Source of the DNA: Modestobacter marinus
GTDB taxonomy: Bacteria > Actinomycetota > Actinomycetes > Mycobacteriales > Geodermatophilaceae
Direction of reading: 5' to 3'
Assembly: GCF_011758655.1 (NCBI RefSeq)
Contig: NZ_JAAMPA010000001.1
Span: forward strand, 1,550,001-1,614,000
DNA: 64,000 bases
Shown: positions 21,389 through 49,619 of the stretch, one piece after another
How positions within the stretch are numbered: the stretch's first letter is position 1
Layout of the letters: each line of letters begins with the position of its first letter
Notes under the pieces: model-generated
The model's database searches: none
The model's input: only the letters and a program-made list of their open reading frames with translations
What the model was told of the DNA's origin: nothing
Translations under genes and position numbers: made by a program

Positions 21389-22291
21389 ATGCTGCGACCT
21401 GTGACCGAGCCCACGCTGCCCGCCGACCCCGCGGCGCTGGCCGCCGCGCTGGAGAGCACCGGCTACCTGCCCGACGAGGGCCTCGCGACGGCGGCCTACC
21501 TGGCGCTGGTCATGCACCGGCCGCTGTTCCTCGAGGGCGAGGCCGGGGTCGGCAAGACCGCGCTGGCCCGCGCGCTCGCCGAGGTGACGAAGCGGCCGAT
21601 CTACCGGCTGCAGTGCTACGAGGGCCTCGAGGCCAGCCACGCCCTCTACGACTGGGACTTCGGCCGCCAGCTCCTGCACCTGCGCGCCGCTGAGGCCGCC
21701 GGCGCCGCCGAGCGCGCCGAGGAGCTGGAGGCCTCGCTCTACGACCGCCGGTTCCTCCTGGCCCGCCCGCTGCTGCAGGCGCTCGAGGACTCGCCGTCCG
21801 TGCTGCTCATCGACGAGGTCGACCGGGCCGACGACGAGTTCGAGGCGTTCCTGCTCGAGGTGCTCAGCGACTTCACCATCTCCATCCCCGAGCTCGGCAC
21901 CGTCCGCGCCCAGACGCCGCCGCTCGTCGTCCTCACCTCCAACCGCACCCGTGAGGTGCACGACGCGCTCAAGCGCCGCTGCCTGTACCACTGGCTGGAG
22001 CACCCGGACTTCGAGCGGGAGGTGGCGATCCTGCGCCGCCGGCTCCCCGACGTCACCGAGGAGCTGGCCCGCCAGGTCGCCCGGGCCACCGCCCGGCTCC
22101 GGGAGCTCGACCTGCTCAAGCCGCCCGGCGTCGCCGAGGCGATGGACTGGGCGACCGCGCTGCACGCCCTCGGCGCCCGCGAGCTCGACCCGGACACCGC
22201 GGCCCGCACGCTGGGGGCGGTGCTGAAGTACCGGGAGGACACCGACCGCGTGCACGCCCTGGCCCGGGGAGCGCTGTTCGGTGGCGGCTGA
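21389..22291 (+). CDS. MoxR-family AAA+ ATPase, CoxD type
   Basis: A 300-residue AAA+ ATPase with Walker A GEAGVGKT (about residues 52-59), Walker B VLLIDEVDRAD (about 133-143) and a sensor 1 segment VVLTSNRTREVHDALKRRC. The stretch LQCYEGLEASHALYDWDF is characteristic of the CoxD-like branch, which helps mature molybdenum hydroxylases such as CO dehydrogenase. The start may be ATG 21389 or GTG 21401. It overlaps the following VWA gene by 11 bp, and a XdhC gene follows, giving a CoxD-CoxE-CoxF-like order. No hydroxylase subunits are in the window. Confidence 0.88.
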   Translation: MLRPVTEPTLPADPAALAAALESTGYLPDEGLATAAYLALVMHRPLFLEGEAGVGKTALARALAEVTKRPIYRLQCYEGLEASHALYDWDFGRQLLHLRAAEAAGAAERAEELEASLYDRRFLLARPLLQALEDSPSVLLIDEVDRADDEFEAFLLEVLSDFTISIPELGTVRAQTPPLVVLTSNRTREVHDALKRRCLYHWLEHPDFEREVAILRRRLPDVTEELARQVARATARLRELDLLKPPGVAEAMDWATALHALGARELDPDTAARTLGAVLKYREDTDRVHALARGALFGGG

Positions 22292-27873: not shown

Positions 27874-28731
27874 TCAGGGTTTTCCCAGCTCCTCACCGGC
27901 CTGTCGCCAGATGTCGGAGACGACGTCCTCGACCGGCCGGGTCAGCCCGTCCGAGACGGTGACCTTGCCGGTGAGCGCGGCCAGGGCGGCGTCCGCGCCG
28001 GTGCGCTCGTCCACCTCGGTGCTGCCGCGGACGACGGCGAGCTCCGTGGCGATCAGCACGGTGTCGATCGCGCCGCGCACCGAGGACCCGATGCGCAGTT
28101 CGGGGTGGTCGCGGGTGATCCGGACGGCCCGCACGGCGCGGCTCATCAGCGCGTCAGGGCTGCCGGTGGCCGCGGCGACGACGGCGCGCTCGGCGTCCTC
28201 GTCCTGGTAGCCCATCGCCACCCGGCAGGACCGGTCGTACAGCGCCGGGGTGATGCGTGCGGTGCCGACGGCGTCGAACGGGTTCATGGCCGCGACCAGC
28301 CGGAAGGTCGGGCGGGCCGGCACCCGGCCGAACCGAGGCACGTGCATCTCGCGCTCGGAGAGCACGCCGAGCAGCACGTTCATCGTCTCCTCGGGCACCC
28401 GGTTGAACTCCTCGACGTAGAGGAGCGCGCCCTCGGTCATCGCCCGGGTGAGCGGGCCGGGCACGAAGTTCTCCGGGCGGTAGTCCTCGCTGAGCACCCG
28501 GGAGGCGTCGTGGTGGCCGACCAGCCGGGTCGGGGTCAGCTCGGCGTTGCCCTCGACCAGGACGAGCGGCACGCCGGTGCCGTCGGCCAGCGCGCGCAAC
28601 AGCGTCGTCTTCCCCGTGCCCGGTGGGCCCTCGAGGACGACGTTCCGCCCGGCCGACAGCGCCGCGGCGACCACCTCCGCCTCCCGGACCCGGGCGACGA
28701 CCCGCTCCTGGGCGGTGCGGACCATCCCCAC
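27874..28731 (-). CDS. MoxR-family AAA+ ATPase downstream of NDMA-alcohol dehydrogenase
   Basis: A 285-residue AAA+ ATPase. Walker A is EGPPGTGKTT (about residues 34-43) and Walker B LLYVEEFNRVPEE (about 103-115), with sensor segment LVAAMNPFDAVGT. The stretch VEGNAELTPTRLVGHHD and the YRPENFVPGPLTRAM segment are shared nearly word for word with the MoxR at 48660, so these two form a subfamily distinct from the CoxD-like ones at 21389 and 41612. The start is uncertain (GTG 28731 or ATG 28725). A strong hairpin separates it from the dehydrogenase gene. Its likely client is that dehydrogenase. Confidence 0.87.
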   Translation of the reverse strand: MGMVRTAQERVVARVREAEVVAAALSAGRNVVLEGPPGTGKTTLLRALADGTGVPLVLVEGNAELTPTRLVGHHDASRVLSEDYRPENFVPGPLTRAMTEGALLYVEEFNRVPEETMNVLLGVLSEREMHVPRFGRVPARPTFRLVAAMNPFDAVGTARITPALYDRSCRVAMGYQDEDAERAVVAAATGSPDALMSRAVRAVRITRDHPELRIGSSVRGAIDTVLIATELAVVRGSTEVDERTGADAALAALTGKVTVSDGLTRPVEDVVSDIWRQAGEELGKP

Positions 28732-28802
28732 CGCGTCCAGCCGGGCAGCGTCGTGTCGGGCAGGCGCGGTGATGACGGGCTCCTCGTCGAGCGCGGGGGA
28801 TG

Positions 28803-28828
28803 CCCCGGGGACCAGACGGTCCCCGGGG
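28803..28828 (-). terminator. 11-bp-stem hairpin between alcohol dehydrogenase and moxR
   Basis: CCCCGGGGACC, a 4-base loop AGAC, then the perfect reverse complement. Lying 16 bp after the dehydrogenase stop and before the MoxR gene, it could attenuate read-through. The enzyme would then be made in excess over its ATPase. Confidence 0.6.
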
Positions 28829-28843
28829 CCGGGCAGCGAGGCG

Positions 28844-29974
28844 TCAGGAGTCGTAGACGATGACGCCGCGGATGTTCTTGCCCTCGTGCAGGTCCTCGTA
28901 GCCCTGGTTGATGTCGTCCAGCTTGTACCGCTTGGTGATCAGCTCGTCGAGCTTGATGTTGCCCTCCTGGTAGAGCCGCAACATCTTCTGCATGTCGGAG
29001 CTGGGGTTCTGGTCCCCGAACAGGGCGCCGCGGATCTCCTTGGTGAACAGCGCCAGCATGCTGGGGTTGATCGGGATGCCGACGTCGGTGAGGTCGCCGA
29101 GTCCGGTCACGACGACCCGCCCGCCCTTGCCGATCGCCTCGAACGCCTGGGCGATGTGCTCGCCCTTCAGCACGCCGACGGTGACCAGCGCCTTGTCCGC
29201 GCCCTGCCCGTTGGTGACGCTGCGCGCGAAGTCAGCGGCCTCCTCGATGCTCGCGAACGTCTCGGTCGCGCCGAGCTCGCGGGCCTTCTCCAGCTTGAAG
29301 GGCACCGGGTCGACGGCGATGACGTGACTGGCCCCGGCGTGTGCTGCGCCCTGGACGGCGTTGATGCCGATCCCGCCGACGCCCATCACGATGACCGTGT
29401 CGCCGGCCCGGACCTCGCCGGCCTGGACGGCGGTGCCCCAGCCGGTGCCGACGCCGCACCCGACGAGGCAGGCGACGTCGAGCGGGATGCTCTTGTCGAT
29501 CTTGACGGTCGATCGGATGTCCACCGTGGTGATCTCGGCGAAGGTGCCCAGCCCGCACATCTGCCCGACGTCCTCGCCGTCGGAGGTCGTGACCCGGAAG
29601 CTCGACGCGTCGTCCCACCGCGAGCCGATGAGCAGGTTGGCGCCGGAGTCGCAGATGTACTGCTGGCCGTTGGCGCAGTAGCGGCACCGGCCGCAGCCGG
29701 GCAGGAACGAGAAGACGACGTGGTCGCCCTCCTCGAAGTCCTTCACGCCCGGGCCGACCTTGGTGACCACGCCGGCGCCCTCGTGGCCGCCGAGGAAGGG
29801 GTACTTGCCGACCTGCATGTCGCCGGTGGCGATGTGGTCGTCGGAGTGGCACAGCCCGGAGGCGGCCAGCTTGACCTGGAGCTCGCCGGCCTGCGGGTCG
29901 TCGACGACCAGGTCGGTGACCTCCCACTTGCCGGGGGCGGAACGCATGATCGCGCCGCGGGTGTTGACAGGCAC
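28844..29974 (-). CDS. NDMA-dependent (mycofactocin-type) zinc alcohol dehydrogenase
   Basis: A 376-residue MDR-family alcohol dehydrogenase. Catalytic zinc ligands Cys42 (GLCHSDDH) and the GHE motif (63-65) are present, with four structural-zinc cysteines at about 94, 97, 100 and 108 (CGRCRYC...C). The cofactor fold shows VMGVGGIGINAVQGA. These features, and the overall sequence, match the NDMA-dependent class, whose NAD stays bound and is re-oxidised through mycofactocin rather than free NAD+. The GTG at 29974 has GAGGAGG just upstream; the longer open frame is not used. A MoxR and a VWA gene follow on the same strand. Confidence 0.92.
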   Translation of the reverse strand: MPVNTRGAIMRSAPGKWEVTDLVVDDPQAGELQVKLAASGLCHSDDHIATGDMQVGKYPFLGGHEGAGVVTKVGPGVKDFEEGDHVVFSFLPGCGRCRYCANGQQYICDSGANLLIGSRWDDASSFRVTTSDGEDVGQMCGLGTFAEITTVDIRSTVKIDKSIPLDVACLVGCGVGTGWGTAVQAGEVRAGDTVIVMGVGGIGINAVQGAAHAGASHVIAVDPVPFKLEKARELGATETFASIEEAADFARSVTNGQGADKALVTVGVLKGEHIAQAFEAIGKGGRVVVTGLGDLTDVGIPINPSMLALFTKEIRGALFGDQNPSSDMQKMLRLYQEGNIKLDELITKRYKLDDINQGYEDLHEGKNIRGVIVYDS

Positions 29975-35385: not shown

Positions 35386-35473
35386 GCGCGGGTAGGCTGC
35401 CGAGTCGTCGCCCGCGACGTCCGGAGGCCGATGTGATCGCTCAGCGTCGAGCGTGCACCCCCGAGAGGGCCGC

Positions 35474-36667
35474 ATGACGACGGTCCTGCGCCCCGGACCG
35501 GCCGCACCGGCCCGCACCTCGGGCACCACCAAGTACCTGGTGCCCGAGGTGGTGTTCGGCTGGGGGGCGCTGTCCGAGGCGGGGTTCGCCGCCCGCCGGC
35601 TCGGCGGCCGGCGGCCGTTCGTGGTCACCGACGGCGGGCTGGTCGAGGCCGGCTGGTGGCACGAGCTGACCGGCCACCTGGCCGAGGCGGGGCTGCGGCC
35701 GACGGTGTGGCAGGGGCTGACCCCCAACCCCAAGGACCACGAGGTGGCCGCCGGTGCGGAGCGCTACCGGGAGAGCGGCTGCGACGTGATCGTGGGCCTG
35801 GGCGGCGGCTCGGTGATCGACGCCGCCAAGGCCATCGCCGTGGTGGCCAGCAACGGCGGGTCGATCCTCGACTACGAGGGCGTCGACCGGGTGCGCACCG
35901 CGCTCCCGCCGACGGTCATGTGCCCGAGCACCGCCGGTACCGGCGCCGACGTCTCGCAGTTCACCGTCATCACCGACACCACCCGCCGGCTGAAGGCGAC
36001 GCTGATCGGGCGGGCCCTGGTGCCCGACATCTCGATCACCGACCCCCGGCTGCTGACCACCATGCCCGCCGACCTGGCCGCGGCGACCGGCCTGGACGCG
36101 CTGACGCACGGCGTCGAGGCCTACGTCTCGCGCGCCTCCGGCCCGCTCACCGACGTGCACGCCCTGCACGCGATCGAGCTGATCTGCGGCTCGCTGCGCC
36201 ACACGCTGCGCCACCCCACCGACGAGGCGGCGCGGACCGCGATGGCGCAGGCGAGCCTGGAGGCAGGGCTGGCCTTCACCAACGCGATCCTGGGCGCCAC
36301 GCACGCGATGAGCCACCAGGTGGGCGGCCTGCTCGACCTCCCGCACGGGGTGGTCAACGGCGTCCTGCTGCCGCACGTCATCCGGTTCAACGCCCGCACC
36401 GTGCCCGACCGGTTCGTCCCGATCGCGCGGGCCATGGGCCTGGACGTCGCCGGGTTGCCGGCCGACGTGGCGGCGGAGCTGGCCGCCGACGCGGTCGGCC
36501 GGCTGGCCGCGGAGCTGGGCTGCCCCCGGGGGCTGGCCGAGCTGGGCGTCCGGGACGCCGACGTCGACGTGCTGGCGAGGACGACGCTGGGCGACGCCTG
36601 CCTGTCCACCAACCCCCGGGACGCCGACCACGCCGACGTCGCCGCGCTGTTCCGCGCCGCCCTCTGA
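35474..36667 (+). CDS. Iron-containing (group III) alcohol dehydrogenase, ErcA-like
   Basis: A 397-residue metal-dependent alcohol dehydrogenase. The nucleotide-binding motif GGGSVIDAAKA is at residues 110-120. Metal ligands are suggested by LDALTHGVEAYVS, GATHAMSHQVGGLLDLPHG and the intervening His residues. The ATG at 35474 has GAGAGGG upstream. Its stop overlaps the start of the adjacent sensor kinase gene, and a response regulator follows. This arrangement recalls the Pseudomonas Erc system, where an iron-type dehydrogenase (ErcA) next to a kinase takes part in control of ethanol oxidation. A sensory or regulatory role rather than bulk catalysis is therefore possible. It differs clearly from the methanol dehydrogenase at 42931. 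Confidence 0.88.
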   Translation: MTTVLRPGPAAPARTSGTTKYLVPEVVFGWGALSEAGFAARRLGGRRPFVVTDGGLVEAGWWHELTGHLAEAGLRPTVWQGLTPNPKDHEVAAGAERYRESGCDVIVGLGGGSVIDAAKAIAVVASNGGSILDYEGVDRVRTALPPTVMCPSTAGTGADVSQFTVITDTTRRLKATLIGRALVPDISITDPRLLTTMPADLAAATGLDALTHGVEAYVSRASGPLTDVHALHAIELICGSLRHTLRHPTDEAARTAMAQASLEAGLAFTNAILGATHAMSHQVGGLLDLPHGVVNGVLLPHVIRFNARTVPDRFVPIARAMGLDVAGLPADVAAELAADAVGRLAAELGCPRGLAELGVRDADVDVLARTTLGDACLSTNPRDADHADVAALFRAAL

Positions 36668-38031
36668 TGCCGCCCCCACCCGGATCGGCCATGCCGGGCA
36701 CGGTCACGGGCACCGCCCCGCCGGGGATCAGCGAGCTCACCGGGCTGCGCTCGTCCAAGCCCAGCTGGTACGCCGAGTACCGGCACACCGCCGACAGCCT
36801 GCACCGGGCGCTGGGGTCGCTGGAGCACATCGCCCGCGTGCTGTCGGCGACCGGGCAGGGCGCCGGTGCGCTGTGCCGGGCGGTGGTCGACGCCTGCGCC
36901 GAGCACCTGGGCGCGCCGTGGGTGGTGCTGGCGCTGCGCGAGGCCGCCCTGCCGCTGGCCCGGCCGCGGCTGCTCGGCCGCGGGCCGGACGGCACGCCGG
37001 TCGGGGACCTCCCCGGGCTGCCGGGGGACGTGCGCCGGCCGGTGGCCGAGGCGCTCGCCGCCGCCGCGGTGGAGCCGTGGCAGACCGGCGACGGGGCGGT
37101 CGTCGTCCCGCTGGTGGTCGACGGTGAGCCGGTCGGCGCGCTGGTGGCCTGCGGCGGACCGCAGCAGCCGGCCTCCCCGGCCGACCTGGCGATCCTGCGG
37201 GTCGTGGGCAACCAGTCGGCGGTCGCGCTGCTGTCGGACCACCTGCTCGCCGGGTCCGAGGCGCTGCGCCGGCAGACCGAGCAGCTGTACGCCGAGGCCG
37301 AGCGGCGGGCGCAGGACCTCGCCGACCGGCACCGGGAGCTGGCCGAGGCCGAGCTGCGGCTGGACGTCGCCGCGCGGCGGGAGGCGGTGGACGCCGAGCG
37401 GCACCGGATCGCCCGGGAGCTGCACGACAGCGTCGCCCAGCACGTCCTCTCGGCCGGCATGACCATCGAGTGGTGCCGGCCGGAGGTGGCCCACCACGCG
37501 GAGGTGCACGCGCGCCTCGGGCACGCCAAGGCGCTCACCCGGGAGGCGGTCGAGCGGCTGCGGGTGGCCATCCACGCGCTCTCGGCCGAGCCGCACGACG
37601 AGCCGGGGCAGGGCCTGCCGGTGCTCCTCGGCCGGTTGCCCGACGTGCACGCGGTGCCCGGGCTCGCGGTCGCCGTCCGTGTCGAGGGCCGGCCCCGGTC
37701 GCTGCCGGCCGACGTCGAGCACTCGCTGTTCCAGATCGCCTCCGAGGCGCTGTTCAACACGGTGCGGCACGCGGCGGCGACCCGGTGCACGGTGCGGCTG
37801 GCCTACCGGGCCGCGGAGCTGCGGCTCTCCGTCGCCGACGACGGCCGCGGCGACCCCGAGGTGCTCCGCCGGATGCTGCGCACCGCCGGCCGGGACAGGG
37901 GCCAGCACCGCGGCCTGGCCAACATGGCCTCCCGCTGCCGGGACGTCGGCGCGACCCTGCGCTTCGGCCGGGCCCGGCTGGGCGGGGTGCGGGTGGAGGT
38001 CCGGCTGCCGCTGGAGGCCGGGGGTGGCTGA
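36667..38031 (+). CDS. GAF-domain sensor histidine kinase (NarL-type system)
   Basis: A 454-residue cytosolic kinase without membrane segments. A GAF-like domain spans about residues 60-200 (VDACAEHLGAPWVVLALRE ... LVACGG), followed by a coiled coil (EQLYAEAERRAQDLADRHRELAE). A HisKA_3 H-box comes next (RIARELHDSVAQHVL, His near 253), and an HATPase domain with N-box ASEALFNTVRHAAATR. The ATG overlaps the dehydrogenase stop (TGATG). It should phosphorylate the RR encoded next. Because it is coupled to an alcohol dehydrogenase, the signal is probably an alcohol, an aldehyde or redox state. Confidence 0.9.
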   Translation: MPPPPGSAMPGTVTGTAPPGISELTGLRSSKPSWYAEYRHTADSLHRALGSLEHIARVLSATGQGAGALCRAVVDACAEHLGAPWVVLALREAALPLARPRLLGRGPDGTPVGDLPGLPGDVRRPVAEALAAAAVEPWQTGDGAVVVPLVVDGEPVGALVACGGPQQPASPADLAILRVVGNQSAVALLSDHLLAGSEALRRQTEQLYAEAERRAQDLADRHRELAEAELRLDVAARREAVDAERHRIARELHDSVAQHVLSAGMTIEWCRPEVAHHAEVHARLGHAKALTREAVERLRVAIHALSAEPHDEPGQGLPVLLGRLPDVHAVPGLAVAVRVEGRPRSLPADVEHSLFQIASEALFNTVRHAAATRCTVRLAYRAAELRLSVADDGRGDPEVLRRMLRTAGRDRGQHRGLANMASRCRDVGATLRFGRARLGGVRVEVRLPLEAGGG

Positions 38032-38665
38032 GCAGATCCGGCTGGTCATCGTCGACGACCACGCCATCGTGCGGCAGGGGCTGCGGTCGATCCTGGAACG
38101 GGAGCCGGGGATCGAGGTCGTGGGCGAGGCCGCGACCGCCGAGGAGGCCCTGGACCTGGTCGCGGCGACCCGGCCGCACATCGTGCTGCTGGACCTCAAG
38201 CTGTCGGCCGGCTCCGACGTCGAGGGCCTGGCCCTGTGCGGGCGGCTGACGGCCCGGGCGCCGGCCCCGGGGGTGCTGGTGGTCACCACGTTCCTGGACC
38301 AGCGGCTGGTGCTGGAGGCGATCCACCAGGGCGCGCGCGGCTACGTCCTCAAGGACGTCGACGCGGTGGCGCTGGTCGCCGCGATCCGGGCGGTGCGCCG
38401 GGGCGAGAGCGCCTTCGACAGCCACAGCGCCGCCGTCGTCGTCCGGTCGTTGCACGCTCCGGCGCCCGCGACCACCGACCTGACCGCCCGGGAGCGGGAG
38501 GTGCTGGCGCTGCTGGCCCGGGGGCTGTCCAACGAGGCCATCGGCCGGGAGCTGTTCATCTCGGCGACGACGGCGAAGTTCCACGTGCACAACCTGCTCC
38601 GCAAGCTGTCGGTGTCCCGCCGTGCCGAGGCGGTCTACGCCGGGTCGAAGCTCGGTCTCATCTGA
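38024..38665 (+). CDS. LuxR/NarL-family response regulator
   Basis: A 213-residue regulator with a receiver domain (phospho-acceptor Asp57 in VLLDLKL, acidic DD at 11-12, Lys in GYVLKDVD) and a C-terminal LuxR HTH (LTAREREVLALLARGLSNEAIG, then TAKFHVHNLLRKLSV). The GTG start lies inside the kinase gene, 8 bp before its stop. The 3' end overlaps the DUF389 gene on the other strand by 31 bp. It is the natural candidate to switch on the alcohol dehydrogenase and methanol dehydrogenase promoters of this region. Confidence 0.92.
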   Translation: MAEQIRLVIVDDHAIVRQGLRSILEREPGIEVVGEAATAEEALDLVAATRPHIVLLDLKLSAGSDVEGLALCGRLTARAPAPGVLVVTTFLDQRLVLEAIHQGARGYVLKDVDAVALVAAIRAVRRGESAFDSHSAAVVVRSLHAPAPATTDLTAREREVLALLARGLSNEAIGRELFISATTAKFHVHNLLRKLSVSRRAEAVYAGSKLGLI

Positions 38666-40053: not shown

Positions 40054-40108
40054 GGGCTCAGCGGGACGGGCTCGGCGGGGCGGGCTCAGCGGGACGGCTC
40101 AGCGGGAC
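40054..40108. repeat. Four tandem 14-bp units at the 3' end of the VWA gene
   Basis: GGGCTCAGCGGGAC (40054), GGGCTCGGCGGGGC, GGGCTCAGCGGGAC and a last 13-base unit follow head to tail. The stop codon of the VWA gene lies in the last unit, so every intact unit repeats a potential in-frame or out-of-frame stop (TCA on the plus strand). It looks like slippage-driven expansion of the gene end. Confidence 0.75.
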
Positions 40109-41610
40109 GAGGCGCGGGTGACCACGTCGGTCGCCCAGCTGTCCAGCGCCGAGTGGTCGCGGACCACCTCCACCCGGTCGCAGCTCTCCGCGTACGCCGG
40201 CAGGTCGCAGCCCCCCAGCGCCCAGCTGTACCGCGGCTCCGGGGTCAGCCAGATCGTCTCCCGCACCCGGCGGGTCAGGTCGGCGAAGACGTCCAGCCGC
40301 GGGGCGTTGCCGTTCCCGCGGCCGTCCCCGAGCACCAGCAGCGTCGACCGGCGGGTGAAGGCCCCGGAGTGGTCGGCGGCCAGGGTGGCGAACGCCGTCC
40401 CGTAGTCGCTGGCGGCGTCCACGTCGATGACGTCGCCCCCGAAGACCAGGCCCAGCGCGTGCTCCAGCGGGTGCTCGTCGAACAGGTCGGTGATCTCCAC
40501 GACGTCGTCGACGAAGGCGAAGGTGCGCACCTGGGCGAACAGGTCCTGCAGCGCGTGGACGACGTGCAGGGTGAACCGCGCCGTCGCCCGCACCGACAGG
40601 CTGACGTCGGCGACCACGACCAGCCGCGGCTTGTCCTCCGCCAGCCGGGTGGTGACCGGCCGGAACGGGACGCCGTCGTAGCGCATGTTGCGCCGCATGG
40701 TGCGGGCCACGTCGATCCGGCCGCGCGGCGACTGCCGCTTCTTGTGGGTCAGCCCGCCGTGCAGCGTGCCGGCCAGCCGGCGCAGCGACTCCTCGATCCG
40801 GGCCCGCTCCGCCTCGGTCACCTTCTCCACCGGCGCCCGGGCCAGCTCCCGCTCCTCGACGGCCAGGTCGGTCATCTCGGCGAGCTTCTGCAGGTGCGCG
40901 GCCAGCAGCTCGGGGAGGTCCTCGATCACCCCGGCCAGCTGGCGGCGCAGCAGCTCGGCGACCTCGGGGTCCAGGTCGCCGGTCGGGTCGGCCAGCCAGT
41001 CGCGCAGCGCCTGCTGCTGGGCCACCGTCAGCTGGGCGTCCAGCGGGGTGCCGCCGCCGCGCACCAGCTCGCCGGGCAGGCCCGGGTCGTGCAGCCGCTC
41101 GACCTCCAGCTGGACCTTCTGCGCCTCGGTGGCGTCCCCGCCACCGCTGTCGGAGGAGAGCACGATCTGCTCGGTCAGCGACGCCAGGTCGATCCGGTTC
41201 GCCTCCTGGTGCAGGTTGTACTGGGTGGCCAGGTCCTCCGGCCGGAAGAACTCCTTGATGTCCACCGGCTTGCCGTGGCTGTGCCCCTCGGCCACCTCGG
41301 CGTCCGGGTCCGGCGACCAGCTCATCCGGGTCAGCTCCCCGGTGTCGGCCAGGTCGTCGTGGCTGTGGCCGTGCTCCTCCTCGGCCGGCAGCACCGGCCG
41401 GAGGGTGAAGAACCGGGCGAAGGTGTCGGCGAAGACCTCGGCGTCCCGCCGGTCCTTGAGCAGTGCCGCCCCCAGGGCGGCCTCCAGCGCGGCCCGGTCG
41501 CGCAGCCCGACGGCGGTGGCCGCCGCGAAGGCGTCCAGCGCCTCCGCGGTGGAGATCCGCATGCCCCGCAGCCGGAGCAGCCGGACGAAGCGGTGCAGCG
41601 CCCCCTCCAT
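40099..41610 (-). CDS. VWA domain protein downstream of methanol dehydrogenase and MoxR
   Basis: A 503-residue CoxE-like protein with an N-terminal helical part and a C-terminal VWA domain whose MIDAS reads ADVSLSV (about residue 335). Two small histidine clusters occur early: EEEHGHSHDDL (80-86) and EGHSHGKP (109-115). The His-rich tail of the MoxR encoded before it is of the same type. The ATG is one base after the MoxR stop, so the two are coupled. The conserved middle part contains HKKRQSPRGRIDVARTMRRNMRYDG. It probably forms a complex with that MoxR ATPase to activate or metallate the methanol dehydrogenase. Confidence 0.87.
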   Translation of the reverse strand: MEGALHRFVRLLRLRGMRISTAEALDAFAAATAVGLRDRAALEAALGAALLKDRRDAEVFADTFARFFTLRPVLPAEEEHGHSHDDLADTGELTRMSWSPDPDAEVAEGHSHGKPVDIKEFFRPEDLATQYNLHQEANRIDLASLTEQIVLSSDSGGGDATEAQKVQLEVERLHDPGLPGELVRGGGTPLDAQLTVAQQQALRDWLADPTGDLDPEVAELLRRQLAGVIEDLPELLAAHLQKLAEMTDLAVEERELARAPVEKVTEAERARIEESLRRLAGTLHGGLTHKKRQSPRGRIDVARTMRRNMRYDGVPFRPVTTRLAEDKPRLVVVADVSLSVRATARFTLHVVHALQDLFAQVRTFAFVDDVVEITDLFDEHPLEHALGLVFGGDVIDVDAASDYGTAFATLAADHSGAFTRRSTLLVLGDGRGNGNAPRLDVFADLTRRVRETIWLTPEPRYSWALGGCDLPAYAESCDRVEVVRDHSALDSWATDVVTRASSR

Positions 41611-41611
41611 C

Positions 41612-42853
41612 TCAGACCGGACGGCGCCGGGCGCTGCCGCCGCGGGTGCCGGAGAACGACCGGGAGCCCTGGCCGCTGCGCACCTCCCGCGGCGTCGCCG
41701 GTGCGTCCGCCGGGCCGCCGCGGGCGCCGTAGGAGTCGTCGTGCCGGCCGGGCCGGTCCTTGGCCGCGCGCACCCGCTTCCCGTCGTCCTCGCCACCACC
41801 AGAACGGCCGTTCTGGTGGGGGGCGGGGTCGTGGGAGTGGGAGTGGCCGGCGTGGTCGTGCGGGCCGTGGCTGTGCGGGCCGTGGTCGTGCGGGTGGGCG
41901 GGCACGGTGGCGTTGGGGTCCAGCAGGCGGGGGAGGGCCTCGCGGGAGCGCTGCACGTCCCGCTCGTACTTGGCCACCACCGAGACGGTGTCGGCGAGCA
42001 CCCCGGCGTCCAGCTCGCTGACGCCCAGCACCGCGAGGGTGCGGGCCCAGTCGATGGTCTCGGAGATGCTCGGTGCCTTGCGCAGGTCCAGGCCGCGCAG
42101 GCCGCGGACGATCTGCACCAGTCGTTGCGCGGCGGCGTCGTCCAGACCGGTGTCCTTGGAGCGCAGGATCTCCAGCTCGCGCTCGGCGTCGGGGTACTCC
42201 AGGAACAGGTGCAGGCAGCGCCGCTTCAGGGCCGCCGACAGGTCGCGGGTGTTGTTCGAGGTGAGGACGACGTACGGCGGGTCCTGCGCGACGAACGTGC
42301 CGATCTCCGGCACCGACACCTGGTACTCGGCGAGCATCTCCAGCAGCACCGCCTCCAGCGCCTCGTCGGCCCGGTCGACCTCGTCGATGAGCAGCACCAC
42401 CGGCTCCGGTGAGCGCACCGCCTCCAGCAGCGGGCGGGCGGCCAGGAAGCGCTCGTTGAAGAAGGCGCTGTCGGCGCTGGCGACCCGGTCGACCGCCTCG
42501 GCCATCGTCGTCGTCTCGGCCAGCAGCTCCGCCGCCTTGTCCCGCAGGATCTGGGTGTAGAGCAGCTGCTTGCCGTAGTCCCACTCGTACAGCGCCTTGG
42601 TCTCGTCCTGCCCCTCGTAGCACTGCAGCCGGAGCAGCCGCCGGCCGGTGGCCGCGGCGAGGGTCTTGGCCAGCTCGGTCTTGCCCACCCCGGCCGGGCC
42701 CTCCAGCAGCAGCGGCTTGGCCAGCCGGCACATCACGAAGGTGGTGGTGGCCAGCCGCCGGTCGGTGACGTAGCCGTGCGCGGCGAAGGCGGCGGCGACG
42801 TCGTCGGGGCTGTCGAACGGGGCAGGGGTGGGCTGGACGTCGGTCGCGGTCAT
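41612..42853 (-). CDS. MoxR-family AAA+ ATPase with His-rich tail
   Basis: A 413-residue AAA+ ATPase of CoxD type. Walker A EGPAGVGKTE is at residues 51-60, LQCYEGQDETKALYEWDYG follows, Walker B is VVLLIDEVDRADE, and sensor 1 is VVLTSNNTRDLSAALKRRC. After the ATPase (about residue 310) comes an extra 100-residue tail beginning with 11 histidines in 27 residues, interleaved with Asp and Ser (HDHGPHSHGPHDH), then a basic disordered part. Such a tail is a metal-binding feature and is absent from the other three MoxR proteins here. A copy of the 24-bp palindrome lies within the tail coding region. The ATG at 42853 is 77 bp after the methanol dehydrogenase stop. Confidence 0.9.
   Translation of the reverse strand: MTATDVQPTPAPFDSPDDVAAAFAAHGYVTDRRLATTTFVMCRLAKPLLLEGPAGVGKTELAKTLAAATGRRLLRLQCYEGQDETKALYEWDYGKQLLYTQILRDKAAELLAETTTMAEAVDRVASADSAFFNERFLAARPLLEAVRSPEPVVLLIDEVDRADEALEAVLLEMLAEYQVSVPEIGTFVAQDPPYVVLTSNNTRDLSAALKRRCLHLFLEYPDAERELEILRSKDTGLDDAAAQRLVQIVRGLRGLDLRKAPSISETIDWARTLAVLGVSELDAGVLADTVSVVAKYERDVQRSREALPRLLDPNATVPAHPHDHGPHSHGPHDHAGHSHSHDPAPHQNGRSGGGEDDGKRVRAAKDRPGRHDDSYGARGGPADAPATPREVRSGQGSRSFSGTRGGSARRRPV
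41796..41819. repeat. 24-bp perfect palindrome inside moxR (family 1 copy)
   Basis: CCACCAGAACGG is followed by its exact reverse complement. It is the same sequence as the core of 24633-24660 apart from compensated A/G and T/C differences in both arms. It encodes residues of the low-complexity MoxR tail (around QNGRSGG), which can tolerate an insertion. Confidence 0.78.
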
Positions 42854-42930: not shown

Positions 42931-44223
42931 TCAGCCGAGCAGGTCGTCCAGGTCGCCGTTCATGCAGTGCTCGACCACCGGGCGCACCGTCTCGAAGGTG
43001 CACTCCTTGGGGTTGCCCGGGGTGCAGGCGTCGCCGAGCACGTGGTGGGTGATCCGGTCGACGTCCTTGTCGTCGCCGGTGATCACCGAGGCGCCCTGGT
43101 AGAACGGCGTCGGCCCCTGGCCCAGCCGGTTCTTGGAGTAGCTGTCCTGGGTGACGTCGGTGAACTTCTCCGGGATGCCGACGTCGCGCAGCAGCCGGAT
43201 GGCCGCGGCCAGGGCGGCGTCGGCGGCCTGGACGTCGGTCATCCCGTGGGTGTCCACGCCCATCGCGGCGGCCATGTCGGCGAACCGCTTGTACTGGGTC
43301 GGCATGTTGAACGCCCACACCCGCGGCAGCGCGATGGCGTTGTTCAGGCCGTGGTGGGTGTCGTAGAAGGCCGACACCGCGTGGCTGATCGAGTGGATGA
43401 TCCCCAGACCGCCGGAGTTGAAGGCCTGCGCGGCGATGTACTGGGCGTACATCATCCCCTGCCGGCCGGCGAGGTCCTGGCCGTTCCAGACCGCCTGGCG
43501 CAGGTGCTCGGCGGTCATCTTCACCGCGTAGAGCGCGTTGCCCAGCGAGGGTGGGAAGTCCAGCCGGGAGACGTAGGGCTCGCTGGCGTGGGCGAGGACG
43601 TCGAACCCGCACTGCGCGGTGTAGTCGACCGGGCAGTCGAAGTAGAGCACCGGGTCGTCGATCGCCAGCGTGGCCAGGCAGTGGTCGTCGAAGGCCACGT
43701 ACTTGTGCGGGTTCTCCGGGTCGGTGGTGGTGTCGGTGATGACGTAGGCCCAGGAGGTCTCCGACCCGGTGCCGGCGGTGGTGGAGACGGCGATGTGCGG
43801 CGGGTTCTTCGGGTTCTCCGACTGGTTGAAGCCCTCGAACTCGTTGACGCTGCGGCCGTCGTGGGCCACCGAGATGCGGGCGCCCTTGCAGGCGTCGTGG
43901 CTGGAGCCGCCCCCGATGGAGACGAAGCTGTCGCAGGCGTTCTCCTGGTACATCCCCACGGCGTCCATGACGTTGTAGTCCTTGGGGTTGGACTCCACCT
44001 TGTCGTAGACCACCACCTCGAGGCCGTGGTACTTCATCGACTCGGCGATCTTGTGCACGATGTCGGTCCCGCGCAGGCCCGAGGTCATGATCAGGGTCTT
44101 CCTGAACCCCAGCTTGAGCGCCTCGGGGCCGATCATCTCGTGCGCCCCGGGCCCCATCATGGCGCGCGGGAACGGGTGGAACTCCTTGATCGGGAACGGC
44201 TTGAGGAGTTCTTCGACCTGCAT
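42931..44223 (-). CDS. mno: NDMA-dependent methanol dehydrogenase (group III metal ADH)
   Basis: A 430-residue decameric-type methanol:NDMA oxidoreductase, known from methylotrophic and other actinobacteria. It oxidises methanol (and formaldehyde or short alcohols) with tightly bound NAD(H), and depends on mycofactocin for re-oxidation. Visible marks are MQVEELLKPFPIKEFHPFPR at the start, GGGSSHDACKG (104-114), the motif LAHASEPYVS and the metal-ligand stretch ISHAVSAFYDTHHG. The C-terminus ends MNGDLDDLLG. The ATG at 44223 is followed by the characteristic N-terminus. A MoxR and a VWA gene follow directly. The upstream space holds a cluster of GGGCAGG boxes. Confidence 0.94.
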   Translation of the reverse strand: MQVEELLKPFPIKEFHPFPRAMMGPGAHEMIGPEALKLGFRKTLIMTSGLRGTDIVHKIAESMKYHGLEVVVYDKVESNPKDYNVMDAVGMYQENACDSFVSIGGGSSHDACKGARISVAHDGRSVNEFEGFNQSENPKNPPHIAVSTTAGTGSETSWAYVITDTTTDPENPHKYVAFDDHCLATLAIDDPVLYFDCPVDYTAQCGFDVLAHASEPYVSRLDFPPSLGNALYAVKMTAEHLRQAVWNGQDLAGRQGMMYAQYIAAQAFNSGGLGIIHSISHAVSAFYDTHHGLNNAIALPRVWAFNMPTQYKRFADMAAAMGVDTHGMTDVQAADAALAAAIRLLRDVGIPEKFTDVTQDSYSKNRLGQGPTPFYQGASVITGDDKDVDRITHHVLGDACTPGNPKECTFETVRPVVEHCMNGDLDDLLG

Positions 44224-45092: not shown

Positions 45093-45704
45093 TCAGTCCG
45101 GTACGCGCAGGGACGGGAAGCCGGCGGCCAGCTCGTCGAAGGCCTGGTGCAGCGCGGCGCCGAGGGTGATCCGGCCGTCGGCCAGCCACAGCTCGAAGGC
45201 CGTCGTCGCGGCGGCCCGGGTGCTCGTCGCGACCAGTCGGGGCACCAGCGCGTCCGGCGCCACCCCGGTCCGCCGCGCCACGTGCGCGGCGACGACCCGG
45301 TCGACGTCCCCGTAGCGCACCTGGGAGTGCGCGAGCAGCGCCGGCTCGGTCAGGATCAGCCGCATCCGCTGGCGCAGCGTCGGCAGGTCGGCCGCGGCGT
45401 AGTCGTTCACCTCGACGTAGGCCGCACAGATCGAGGCCAGCACCGGCTGGTCGCCGGCGGTGGCGGCGAGCATCGCCTCCAGCCGGACGACGTGACCGTC
45501 GAACTGGCCCCAGACCGCGTCGGCCTTGGTGCCGAAGTAGCGGAAGAAGGTGCGCCGGCTGATCCCGGCGGCATCGGCCACCTCGTCGATGGTCACCGCC
45601 TCGAACCCCTGGGCGGTGAACAGGTCGAGGGCGGCCTGCTCGATCCGGGCGCGGGTCTCCTCGCGGGCGTCGGCCGCGACCACCGTCTCGGTCACGGCGC
45701 CCAT
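45093..45704 (-). CDS. mftR: Mycofactocin system TetR-type regulator
   Basis: A 203-residue TetR-family repressor. The N-terminal HTH spans about residues 20-65 (RIEQAALDLFTAQGFEAVTIDEVADAAGISRRTFFRYF) and the rest forms the ligand domain. It is divergent from the mycofactocin precursor gene, the usual place of mftR. MftR proteins bind the mft promoter and are released by long-chain acyl-CoA in mycobacteria. The ATG at 45704 has GAGGGGC upstream, and a longer in-frame reading to 45782 is unlikely. A dyad between it and mftA is the expected operator. Confidence 0.9.
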   Translation of the reverse strand: MGAVTETVVAADAREETRARIEQAALDLFTAQGFEAVTIDEVADAAGISRRTFFRYFGTKADAVWGQFDGHVVRLEAMLAATAGDQPVLASICAAYVEVNDYAAADLPTLRQRMRLILTEPALLAHSQVRYGDVDRVVAAHVARRTGVAPDALVPRLVATSTRAAATTAFELWLADGRITLGAALHQAFDELAAGFPSLRVPD

Positions 45705-45759
45705 CCTGCCCCTCGGCGGCGGGGTGGTCGGCGGTCGGCGCGCTCGTCGTCCGTGCCCC

Positions 45760-45812
45760 TTGCCGGTGGCACTGGGTGTCACCTACGGTCGGCCGGGTCA
45801 GATCCGTGACCC
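45760..45812 (+). promoter_or_regulatory. mftA promoter with two candidate MftR operators
   Basis: TTGCCG (45760-45765) and TACGGT (45784-45789), 18 bp apart, can serve as -35 and -10. The spacer contains the inverted repeat GGTGGCAC-TGG-GTGTCACC (45765-45783), which matches in 7 of 8 pairs and would let a bound repressor block RNA polymerase. A second repeat, GGGTCA-6-TGACCC (45795-45812), covers the expected transcription start. Binding is inferred, not shown. Confidence 0.5.
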
Positions 45813-45831
45813 AGCTCACCCCGGAGGCACC

Positions 45832-45951
45832 GTGCCCGAGACGACGCAGGACGAGCTCACCGTCGAGACCCCCGCGGCAGCCGAGGAGGCCCTCGTCGAG
45901 GAGTCCCTCGTGGAGGAGGTCTCCATCGACGGCATGTGCGGCGTCTACTGA
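45832..45951 (+). CDS. mftA: Mycofactocin precursor peptide
   Basis: A 39-residue peptide, too short for most gene finders. It has an acidic leader (DELTVETPAAAEEALVEESL) and ends in the diagnostic IDGMCGVY. The C-terminal Val-Tyr is decarboxylated and cross-linked by MftC, cut off by MftE and converted further to the redox cofactor. The GTG at 45832 has CCGGAGG six bases upstream, in the frame ending at the TGA 45949-45951. Everything expected of MftA (leader acidity, Gly-Met-Cys-Gly-Val-Tyr end, position before mftB) is present. Confidence 0.95.
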   Translation: MPETTQDELTVETPAAAEEALVEESLVEEVSIDGMCGVY

Positions 45952-45980
45952 GCCCCGCGCTCACCGACCCCGACGCCGTC

Positions 45981-46346
45981 ATGACCTCGACCGCTCCGGC
46001 CGCAGCGGTGGCCGGCCCCGCCGGGCCCGACCCTGCTGCGTCTCACCCTGCCGCGTCCCACCCTGCCGCCTTCGACCCGGCACTGCCATGGCAGCGGGCC
46101 CGTTCGGTGGCGCTGCGGCCGGAGCCGTTCGGGGCGCTGGTCTACCACTTCGGCACCCGGAAGCTCTCCTTCCTGAAGTCGAAGACGCTGGTCCGCGTGG
46201 TGGAGACCCTCGCCGACCACCCCACCGCCACGGCCGCCCTCCTCGCCTGCGAGGTGCCGGAGTCCCAGCGGCCCACCTACGTCAAGGCGCTGGCCGACCT
46301 GGCCCGGTCGCAGATGATCGAACGCCGCCCCGAGGAGCCCGCGTGA
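45981..46346 (+). CDS. mftB: Mycofactocin peptide chaperone (RRE protein)
   Basis: A 121-residue protein with a PqqD-like RiPP recognition element that binds the MftA leader and presents it to MftC. The recognisable domain begins near residue 35 with FDPALPW and continues RPEPFGALVYHFGTRKLSFLKSKTL, ending in LADLARSQMIERRP. The first 35 residues are an Ala/Pro-rich extension with a repeated AASHP unit, not usual for MftB. A start further in cannot be excluded. Its stop overlaps the mftC GTG (GTGA). Confidence 0.92.
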   Translation: MTSTAPAAAVAGPAGPDPAASHPAASHPAAFDPALPWQRARSVALRPEPFGALVYHFGTRKLSFLKSKTLVRVVETLADHPTATAALLACEVPESQRPTYVKALADLARSQMIERRPEEPA

Positions 46347-47587
46347 CCGCCGTCCTGCCCTCCCGTGACCGGCCCGTCGGTGGCCGGCTGGTCGACCAGT
46401 TCGAGTACGGCCTGGACGCCCCGATCTGCCTGACCTGGGAGCTGACCTACGCCTGCAACCTGGCGTGCGTGCACTGCCTGTCCTCCTCCGGGCGCCGCGA
46501 CCCCCGGGAGCTGTCCACGACCGAGGCCGAGGCGGTGATCGACGAGCTGCAGCGGATGCAGGTCTTCTACGTCAACGTCGGCGGCGGTGAGCCCACCGTC
46601 CGGCCGGACTTCTGGCACCTGCTGGACTACGCGATCGGCCACGACGTCGGGGTCAAGTTCTCCACCAACGGCGTGAAGCTGGACAAGGCCCGCGCCGCGC
46701 AGCTGGCCCGGACCGACTACGTGGACGTGCAGATCTCCCTGGACGGCGCCACCGCCGAGGTCAACGACCGGGTCCGCGGCACCGGCTCGTTCGCCACCGC
46801 CAGGAAGGCGCTGGAGAACCTGGCCGAGGCCGGCATGAAGGACTTCAAGGTCTCCGTCGTCGTCACCCGGGAGAACGTCTCCCAGCTCGATGACTTCAAG
46901 GCGCTGACCGACTCCTACGGTGCGCAGCTGCGGATCACCCGCTTCCGCCCGTCCGGTCGCGGCGCGGACGTGTGGGAGCAGCTGCACCCCACCCAGGCCC
47001 AGCAGCGGGAGCTGTACTCCTGGCTGCTGGCCAACGGCGAGGGCGTGCTGACCGGCGACTCGTTCTTCCACCTCTCCGCGTTCGGGGAGGCCCTGCCCGG
47101 GCTCAACCTGTGCGGCGCGGGGCGGGTGGTGTGCCTGATCGACCCGGTGGGCGACGTCTACGCCTGCCCGTTCGCCATCCACGAGCAGTTCCTCGCCGGC
47201 AACGTGCGCTCCCCCGGCGGCTTCCAGCGGGTGTGGCAGCACTCGGAGCTGTTCGCCGACCTGCGCAGCCCGCAGACCGGCGGGGCGTGCACCAAGTGCG
47301 CCCACTTCGACGCCTGCCGAGGCGGCTGCATGGCCGCGAAGTTCTTCACCGGGCTCCCGCTGGACGGCCCCGACCCGGAGTGCGTGCAGGGCTACGGGGA
47401 GACCGCCCTGGCCGCCCGCGACCTGGAGCTGGTCACGCCGAAGAGCCACATCGACCACTCGCACACCGGCCCGGTCCGCGGCCAGCCCACCCTGCTGGGC
47501 ATGCCGGGCGTCCCGGCCCGGCCCACGCCCGCACCGCCCGCCAAGATCTGCGACGAGTCCCCGCTCGCCGGCCTGCAGCTGGGCTGA
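46343..47587 (+). CDS. mftC: Mycofactocin radical SAM maturase
   Basis: A 414-residue radical SAM/SPASM enzyme. The SAM cluster cysteines are Cys38, Cys42 and Cys45 (CNLACVHC). The SPASM region holds LCGAGRVVCLIDPVGDVYACPF and CTKCAHFDACRGGC for auxiliary clusters. MftC oxidatively decarboxylates the C-terminal Tyr of MftA and then forms a C-C bond to Val. Length and motif order match the family. The C-terminus is extended by a Pro-rich tail. It overlaps mftB. In typical clusters mftD follows; here a hairpin and an SDR gene follow instead. Confidence 0.95.
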   Translation: MTAVLPSRDRPVGGRLVDQFEYGLDAPICLTWELTYACNLACVHCLSSSGRRDPRELSTTEAEAVIDELQRMQVFYVNVGGGEPTVRPDFWHLLDYAIGHDVGVKFSTNGVKLDKARAAQLARTDYVDVQISLDGATAEVNDRVRGTGSFATARKALENLAEAGMKDFKVSVVVTRENVSQLDDFKALTDSYGAQLRITRFRPSGRGADVWEQLHPTQAQQRELYSWLLANGEGVLTGDSFFHLSAFGEALPGLNLCGAGRVVCLIDPVGDVYACPFAIHEQFLAGNVRSPGGFQRVWQHSELFADLRSPQTGGACTKCAHFDACRGGCMAAKFFTGLPLDGPDPECVQGYGETALAARDLELVTPKSHIDHSHTGPVRGQPTLLGMPGVPARPTPAPPAKICDESPLAGLQLG

Positions 47588-48543: not shown

Positions 48544-48659
48544 CCGGCCGGGTGGAGGGCTGCACGACCACGTAGCCGCTGCCGGGCCCCGGCGCCGGGC
48601 CGACGCGGTCCCGGTGCCGGACGCCGGCAGGGAGGGAGGTCCACATCAGCGAGGAATCC

Positions 48660-49619
48660 GTGGTGACCGGCAGCCGGGTGACCGGCGACGACGGCGCGTC
48701 GGTCCGCGAGGTCCGCGAGCGGGTCGCCCGGCACCTGGTCGGCCGCGACCGCGAGCTGGACCTGCTCTTGGCCACGGTGGCCGCCGGCCGGGACGTGCTG
48801 CTGGAGGGACCGCCGGGGACGTCGAAGTCCACCCTGCTGCGCGCGATCACGGCGGAGTGGGGCATCCCGCTGTTCTTCGTCGAGGGCAACGCCGACCTGA
48901 CGCCCACCCGGCTGGTCGGGCACCACGACCCGGCCCGGGTGCTGCGGGAGGACTACTCCCCGGACAACTTCGTCCCCGGCCCGCTGGTCGACGCGATGCG
49001 CGCCGGCGGTTTCCTCTACGTGGAGGAGTTCAACCGCGCCCCCGAGGACACGCTGAACACCCTGCTCACCGCGATGGCCGAACGGCGGATCGCGGTGCCC
49101 CGGGTCGGGGTGCTCGAGGCGTTGCCCAGCTTCCGGGTGATCGCCTCGATGAACCCGTACGACAACGTGGGCACCACCCGGCTGTCCACGTCCGTGCACG
49201 ACCGGCTGTGCCGGCTGGCGATCGACTACCAGGACGCCGAGGCCGAGCGGGGGATCGTCGGCAGGCGCACCGGGATCGAGTCACCCCGCCTGGTCGCCGA
49301 CGCGGTGGCGCTGACCCGGGCGACCCGGGGCCGGGACGACGTCCGGCAGGGCAGCAGCGTGCGCGGCGCCATCGACACCGCGTTGGTCGCCGCCCAGCTG
49401 GCCGCGCTGCGTGGGGTGCCGCTGCCCGACGAGCCGGCGGTCGATCCGCCGCGCGGGCTGCCGGAGGAGTACACCGCGGTCGTCCTGGACGCCGTCCTGG
49501 TGGCGCTGTCCGGGCGGGTGTTCCTCGACGACACCGTGGAGGCCAGCCCCGAGGCGGTCCTGCACGAGATCTGGGCCGACCACTTCCTGCTGCAGCCGGC
49601 GGCCGCCGCCCCCGGTTGA
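48660..49619 (+). CDS. MoxR-family AAA+ ATPase downstream of mycofactocin SDR
   Basis: A 319-residue ATPase closely related to the MoxR at 27874. Walker A reads EGPPGTSKST (about residues 46-55), Walker B LYVEEFNRAPEDT, sensor VIASMNPYDNVGT. The VEGNADLTPTRLVGHHDPARVL and YSPDNFVPGPL stretches are shared with that paralog. The start is GTG 48660 with GAGGAA 7 nt upstream. An ATC at 48645, after a very strong GGAGGGAGG, would fit the spacing better and may indicate a non-standard start. The gap to the SDR stop is 116 bp. Its proposed client is the SDR or another mycofactocin enzyme. Confidence 0.88.
   Translation: MVTGSRVTGDDGASVREVRERVARHLVGRDRELDLLLATVAAGRDVLLEGPPGTSKSTLLRAITAEWGIPLFFVEGNADLTPTRLVGHHDPARVLREDYSPDNFVPGPLVDAMRAGGFLYVEEFNRAPEDTLNTLLTAMAERRIAVPRVGVLEALPSFRVIASMNPYDNVGTTRLSTSVHDRLCRLAIDYQDAEAERGIVGRRTGIESPRLVADAVALTRATRGRDDVRQGSSVRGAIDTALVAAQLAALRGVPLPDEPAVDPPRGLPEEYTAVVLDAVLVALSGRVFLDDTVEASPEAVLHEIWADHFLLQPAAAAPG

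Follow-up and report, generated by a model that had tools for sequence, protein, structure and literature searches.

Modestobacter marinus encodes, directly beside its gene for a mycofactocin-dependent methanol dehydrogenase (mno, also called mdo), a MoxR-type AAA+ ATPase and a VWA-domain partner that both carry histidine-rich stretches. The three genes lie in a 64,000-nucleotide stretch of contig NZ_JAAMPA010000001.1 (assembly GCF_011758655.1, positions 1,550,001 to 1,614,000; hereafter the window, from whose first letter coordinates are counted). Histidine-rich tails of this kind are confined, in our comparison set, to MoxR proteins linked to mno, and the histidines of the two partners come and go together. 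We propose that the pair is a NorQD-like maturation machine for Mno bearing an accessory histidine module for metal supply spread across both proteins, and we give this combined statement a probability of roughly 0.55.

The window mno gene (42931..44223, minus strand, 430 residues) encodes a group III iron-type alcohol dehydrogenase (Fe-ADH) of the N,N-dimethyl-4-nitrosoaniline (NDMA)-dependent, that is mycofactocin-dependent, kind. It scores 682.9 bits against TIGR04266 (NDMA-dependent methanol dehydrogenase; curated cut-off 625) and 134 bits against PF00465, and also matches PF25137. These matches bear out the original prediction, an earlier reading of the window that had called Mno a group III metal-dependent ADH. 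The gene order on the minus strand is mno, MoxR, VWA; 77 bases separate mno from MoxR, and a single base separates MoxR from the VWA gene.

The same arrangement recurs in other genomes. A TIGR04266-like gene (E ≤ 1e-100) is present in 25 of 396 genomes of the phylum and 53 of 399 of the order. A MoxR gene lies directly downstream in 73 of the 74 distinct mno genes taken from whole-genome searches, and the single mno gene lacking one lies close to a contig end, 226 bases away. The earlier assignment of the pair to the mno locus is therefore upheld by this adjacency. Four annotated plasmid copies (Rhodococcus WAY2 and ZPP, M. dioxanotrophicus and M. chubuense NBB4) have the order mdo-MoxR-VWA, and three of the four are close to methane/ammonia monooxygenase-type genes; loci L042, L044 and L045, from Rhodococcus and Mycolicibacterium plasmids, have this arrangement. 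Transposases adjoin the cluster in both Rhodococcus plasmids.

The MoxR protein (41612..42853, minus strand, 413 residues) has all the hallmarks of a MoxR-type AAA+ ATPase. It scores 56 bits against PF07728 (cut-off 22), its Walker A (GPAGVGKT), Walker B (LLIDEVD) and sensor 1 (TSNN) motifs are intact and invariant in our alignment A3, and the VWA gene is directly downstream; NF047784 (MadB), alignment A1, the AlphaFold2 (AF2) model and the NorQ fold give the same assignment. Its tail, predicted to be disordered, holds 11 histidines within 27 residues (320-346; 41816..41896, minus strand), a density supported by orthologs. The original prediction had the count right and the position, about 316-343, slightly wrong. 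Chance composition is ruled out as the source: none of 20,000 shuffles of the protein reached 11 histidines in 27 residues, and the best reached 7. The window's three further MoxR genes (21389-22291, plus strand; 27874-28938, minus strand; and an open reading frame (ORF) at 48576-49619, plus strand) lack a histidine-rich tail, as had been predicted. Another stretch of the HTHGHSHGHGHSH type occurs elsewhere in the same genome, inside a gene at G000:C1:2140320-2140358.

Beyond the histidines the MoxR tail ends in a conserved module, RAAKDxPGRHxxxYYG ... GQGxRSF ... RRR (residues 357-413; 41615..41785, minus strand; alignment A3), with a short helix predicted at 357-365. The module is kept in most class-2 tails and largely also in those without histidines, which means that the tail is built of two or more modules. 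These C-terminal motifs are possibly a docking site for Mno. Short aromatic-glycine motifs (NYFGA, RYFGGYRG, AAFRGRGGR) are found at the C-termini of other mno-linked MoxR proteins and are apparently missing from unlinked ones.

The VWA partner (40099..41610, minus strand, 503 residues) is a member of the VWA_CoxE family (PF05762, 118.1 bits; gathering cut-off 26.4). PF05762, NF047783, the AF2 model and the NorD fold together describe a helical N-domain (residues 1-70), a linker and a VWA domain (about 325-503). The VWA domain has a motif resembling a metal ion-dependent adhesion site (MIDAS), DVSLS (335-339; 40594..40608, minus strand), in which D335, S337 and S339 are invariant in alignment A2. 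The linker (residues 74-191; 41038..41391, minus strand) is predicted from the model to be disordered. Its two histidine clusters, HGHSH at residues 80-84 (41359..41373, minus strand) and the HSH of GHSHG at 110-112 (41275..41283, minus strand), are exactly where they had first been reported. By density they are ordinary, as 19,422 of 20,000 shuffles contain three histidines in 27 residues; they are significant because they are conserved among orthologs. In the VWA proteins of non-mno pairs, the histidine-bearing part of the linker is missing.

How far do the tails follow mno? We scored a tail as histidine-rich if it had at least 4 histidines in 27 residues, in a set of 178 MoxR proteins. By this score 78 of 104 mno-linked MoxR proteins have a histidine-rich tail compared with 0 of 74 unlinked relatives, the latter being fetched loci (mostly top-scoring hits and genus relatives) and not a random sample. 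The unlinked proteins stop soon after the AAA+ core or carry different tails. In this set the tails are confined to mno-linked proteins, though they are not always found there.

The mno-linked tails are of three kinds: long and histidine-rich, in the window class and one clade of the same phylum; short, ending like EMHRSTHKHAH; and histidine-poor, as in several exceptions and in the canonical class of mycobacteria, whose tails end like AAFRGRGGR. The loci without histidines include the canonical mycobacterial operon and several from Pseudonocardiaceae and Nocardia. Histidine tails also occur beyond the phylum, in an alphaproteobacterial metagenome contig (L105, 26 histidines) and a Chloroflexales contig (L136, 12 histidines, the tail running to the contig end). 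L105 and a gammaproteobacterial metagenome contig (L120) encode Mno proteins that are 82% identical, yet one pair is histidine-rich and the other histidine-poor, each in both proteins. Tail histidines are encoded by a mixture of CAC and CAT in 45 of 64 loci, and the longest perfect tandem repeat is 27 nucleotides; mixed codons and short perfect repeats rule out repeat slippage in GC-rich DNA as the origin of the tail.

The histidines of the two partners vary jointly. When the MoxR tail was scored for HxH or HH and the VWA linker for HxH, both carried histidines in 72 loci, neither did in 23, and 3 loci were mismatched (1 one way and 2 the other). The thresholds were chosen after the first tails had been viewed; two definitions give a similar result. 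Fisher's test gives p = 5e-19 for this association, a figure that ignores relatedness and is not readable as a probability. Close relatives make the same point. Locus L210 (genome G523) lacks the tail histidines and both linker clusters (GLTPG for GHEHG), whereas two loci of the same genus, L212 and L216 (G725 and G655), have them; the Mno proteins of L210 and L212 are 89.8% identical. A second same-genus contrast sets L213 (G744) apart from L237 and L239 (G628 and G694) in the same manner. Mapped onto the tree, the trait shows 10 changes for the tail and 9 for the linker.

The metal site of Mno does not follow this pattern. Alignment to the Asp-His-His-His pattern of type III ADHs (PMC3602061) predicts D208, H212, H277 and H291 as the metal ligands of the window enzyme, and all four are kept in 106 of 106 tabulated mno loci, histidine-bearing or not. 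As far as these four ligands go, an altered metal site in the histidine-less loci is rejected. The site is kept where the histidines are absent, so they are not indispensable for metalation of Mno; with only 78 of 104 tails histidine-rich, a universal requirement for them is also ruled out. An ORF scan of the histidine-less loci for a substitute histidine-rich neighbour gave scattered hits in unannotated ORFs and no consistent partner. Elsewhere in class-2 Mno, a few positions covary with histidine loss: T237V is found in 9 of 10 histidine-less and 0 of 56 histidine-positive loci, and M307L and L338V in 8 of 10 histidine-less loci, a covariation limited by few independent events and many scanned columns, at hydrophobic core positions. 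The loci concerned are L210, L095, L099, L101, L241-L243 and L246; L213 has none of the three changes, and the canonical histidine-less class mostly has V/L/V at 237/307/338.

The closest solved fold for the ATPase is that of NorQ, and for the VWA protein NorD is near the top; NorQD inserts iron into nitric oxide reductase. In the AF2 model of MoxR, residues 12-311 make up an AAA+ core with high predicted local distance difference test (pLDDT) values, lower between 81 and 140, and the tail is disordered; in a fold search of the PDB its best 11 matches are NorQ chains, with CbbQ next. The likeness to NorQ and CbbQ is one of fold only: CbbQ_C (PF08406) scores 14.2 bits in this protein, below the gathering score of 20.6. 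In the VWA model both histidine clusters fall in the disordered region 74-191 (mostly pLDDT < 50), between the helical N-domain and a VWA domain that begins at about 325. NorD ranks 2-3 in the fold search with this model, behind the MIDAS domain of midasin; a PDB sequence search with the VWA profile gave no match. NorD is laid out as N-domain, disordered linker and VWA domain (PMC9976466), and the VWA partner as modelled shares this layout. Deletions in the NorD linker yield a nitric oxide reductase (cNOR) without its FeB iron (PMC13036017). As here, a MoxR AAA+ protein and a VWA partner are encoded beside the target metalloenzyme. The targets differ, that of NorQD being a membrane enzyme of the heme-copper type and Mno a soluble Fe-ADH; and the NorQD papers that we searched mention no histidine-rich region.

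Other relatives are instructive. MadB and MadC, of the canonical mycobacterial mno operon, occupy the same position next to mno, are the best NCBIfam matches and also neighbour a MadR-family regulator, but histidines are scarce or absent in their tail and linker. The window proteins fall short of both equivalog cut-offs: MoxR scores 373 bits against NF047784 (cut-off 475; the canonical mycobacterial ortholog scores 499.5) and the VWA protein 258 bits against NF047783 (cut-off 600). We found no paper in the open literature that names MadB/MadC or gives the source of the name Mad. CoxD and CoxE are an AAA+ ATPase and a VWA_CoxE protein needed to complete the metal cluster of CO dehydrogenase (PMC3471820, PMC4240915). 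The window's VWA partner is likewise a PF05762 member; the target and metal centre are different, and the window's own CoxD-like MoxR (21389-22291) has no histidine tail. Terminal or linker HxHxH stretches are also familiar from nickel and zinc chaperones such as HypB, UreE, CooJ and CobW/COG0523, which are nucleotide-hydrolysing or chaperone proteins devoted to a metalloenzyme, and some of their homologs have lost the stretch. The folds of those proteins, G3E GTPases among them, are unrelated, and in the present pair the stretches are shared by two partners.

Taken with the operon linkage, these likenesses suggest dedicated, ATP-driven maturation of mycofactocin-dependent Mno in the style of NorQ/NorD. 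A MoxR hexamer would carry the VWA protein as adaptor, its N-domain and VWA domain joined through the disordered linker. ATP hydrolysis would tug on the linker and open apo-Mno for its catalytic metal. The histidine stretches of ATPase tail and adaptor linker would bind a divalent transition metal, most plausibly zinc, and so enrich it next to the site once that is open. They would be an accessory supply, separate from the insertion mechanism and dispensable in some lineages. The steps are not equally secure. That the pair acts on Mno is likely, and that its histidines bind metal in the cell is probable, with somewhat less assurance; for delivery of the bound metal to Mno we judge the odds about even. 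Our boldest formulation, a two-protein AAA+/VWA metal insertase for a group III ADH with its own metal store split over tail and linker and added or dropped in both at once, is tentative, and we would bet slightly against it. To our knowledge, the group III ADH fold is generally thought to acquire its metal unaided.

Several observations weigh against the reading we prefer. About a quarter of the mno-linked pairs have no histidines although their Mno retains D-H-H-H, and orthologs with histidine-less tails were what the original prediction had named as evidence against its metallochaperone. That idea keeps the mno linkage, the confinement and joint gain and loss of the histidines and the NorQ/NorD-like layout; it loses any strict need for histidines. 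The group III methanol dehydrogenase of Bacillus is a decamer that contains Zn, Mg and tightly held NAD(H); E. coli produces it in active form (PMC3602061), and an AAA+ pair is therefore no general need of the fold. The phylogenetically corrected test is underpowered: of 6 independent pairs, 4 change the same way, 0 the opposite way and 2 show no difference, a number too small for a decision (p = 0.125), and linkage to mno has itself only a few origins on the tree. Because the quality of the VWA model is moderate (mean pLDDT 68.6, predicted template modelling score 0.46), we used its layout alone.

The main competing explanation is that the pair remodels or re-activates Mno in the manner of CbbQ/CbbO, by loading or freeing the tightly bound NADP(H), giving access to mycofactocin or assembling the decamer, with the histidines merely buffering metal or stabilizing the complex. 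The Rubisco activase CbbQO is itself a MoxR/VWA pair, and CbbQ ranks just behind NorQ in our fold search; in the decamer of group III methanol dehydrogenases, NAD(H) is tightly held (PMC3602061); and the persistence of histidine-less pairs beside Mno with intact ligands implies that the core job needs no histidines. Remodelling leaves unexplained, however, why the histidines appear and vanish in both partners at once and only in mno-linked pairs, and NorQ, which inserts metal, is the top match by fold. We consider it unlikely, though a serious contender.

The histidines might instead be a metal sensor or brake, with binding switching the ATPase on or off or sequestering excess zinc that would mismetalate Mno. 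The M. smegmatis mno operon is indeed tied to zinc. The three orthologous genes MSMEG_6240/6241/6242 are co-regulated, changing −3.0/−3.7/−4.6 fold in zinc excess and further in mutants (−24/−25/−28 fold in delta-zur and −4.6/−5.1/−6.4 fold in delta-smtB), with no value listed for zinc chelation (PMC7174638). This behaviour fits a zinc-sensitive enzyme at least as well as it fits zinc delivery. But the MoxR tail of that operon is histidine-less, so its zinc response is independent of histidines, and we think a sensor or brake improbable. The same facts cut against metal supply too, since the direction of the response does not alone show delivery. Neutral low-complexity drift in GC-rich genomes would account for the wide variation in tail length and exact sequence among orthologs. 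DNA patterns for HxHxHxHxH number 25 in the genome and 17 in a reversed control (overlapping hits) and are not commoner, in a scan that misses this tail. Drift is already disfavoured, and very much so, by the absence of such tails from all 74 non-mno relatives, many from equally GC-rich genomes, by the matching histidines in a second protein, by recurrence in distant phyla and by the lack of perfect repeats. We return to a conserved, probable Mno maturation machine, to which the histidines seem to add an optional module for metal supply.

The surroundings of the locus resemble those known from M. smegmatis. The mycofactocin genes mftR (minus strand), mftB and mftC (both plus strand) lie upstream of mno (45093..47587) and score above cut-off against TIGR03968, TIGR03967 and TIGR03962, respectively; Mno presumably passes its electrons to mycofactocin. 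Past the VWA gene, the opposite (plus) strand carries a second, ErcA-like Fe-ADH (35453..36667; NF041833, 466 bits, under the cut-off of 550), a MadS-like sensor kinase (36664..38031; NF047786, 451 bits, under the cut-off of 500) and the response regulator MadR (38036..38665; NF047785, 331 bits, over the cut-off of 300). M. smegmatis has the mno operon msmeg_6242-6238 and its mnoS/mnoR (PMC11303327; PMC7174638). The window has a similar gene content divided over two transcription units, one of them at 35453-38665 on the plus strand. Among the genomes listed in the scan of the order, those of the same genus (G001-G022) all lack a TIGR04266 gene and other genera of the family have one, a patchy distribution suggesting that the locus may have been acquired in this genome.

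That MoxR/VWA pairs finish metal centres is already known, and NCBIfam names the mycobacterial pair as MadB/MadC, covering the histidine-less form. We found no description of the histidine-bearing form, its restriction to mno or its joint variation in the open literature searched. Biotechnology based on methanol has an interest in the Mno-type methanol dehydrogenases of actinobacteria, enzymes linked to the redox cofactor mycofactocin. If Mno does need the pair, mno expressed alone would be poorly active for want of these two proteins. Mno would also be a new class of target for the MoxR/VWA machines that insert metals. Because the histidines are jointly present or absent, nature provides paired test cases, Mno proteins about 90% identical with and without the supply module, for the function of these stretches.

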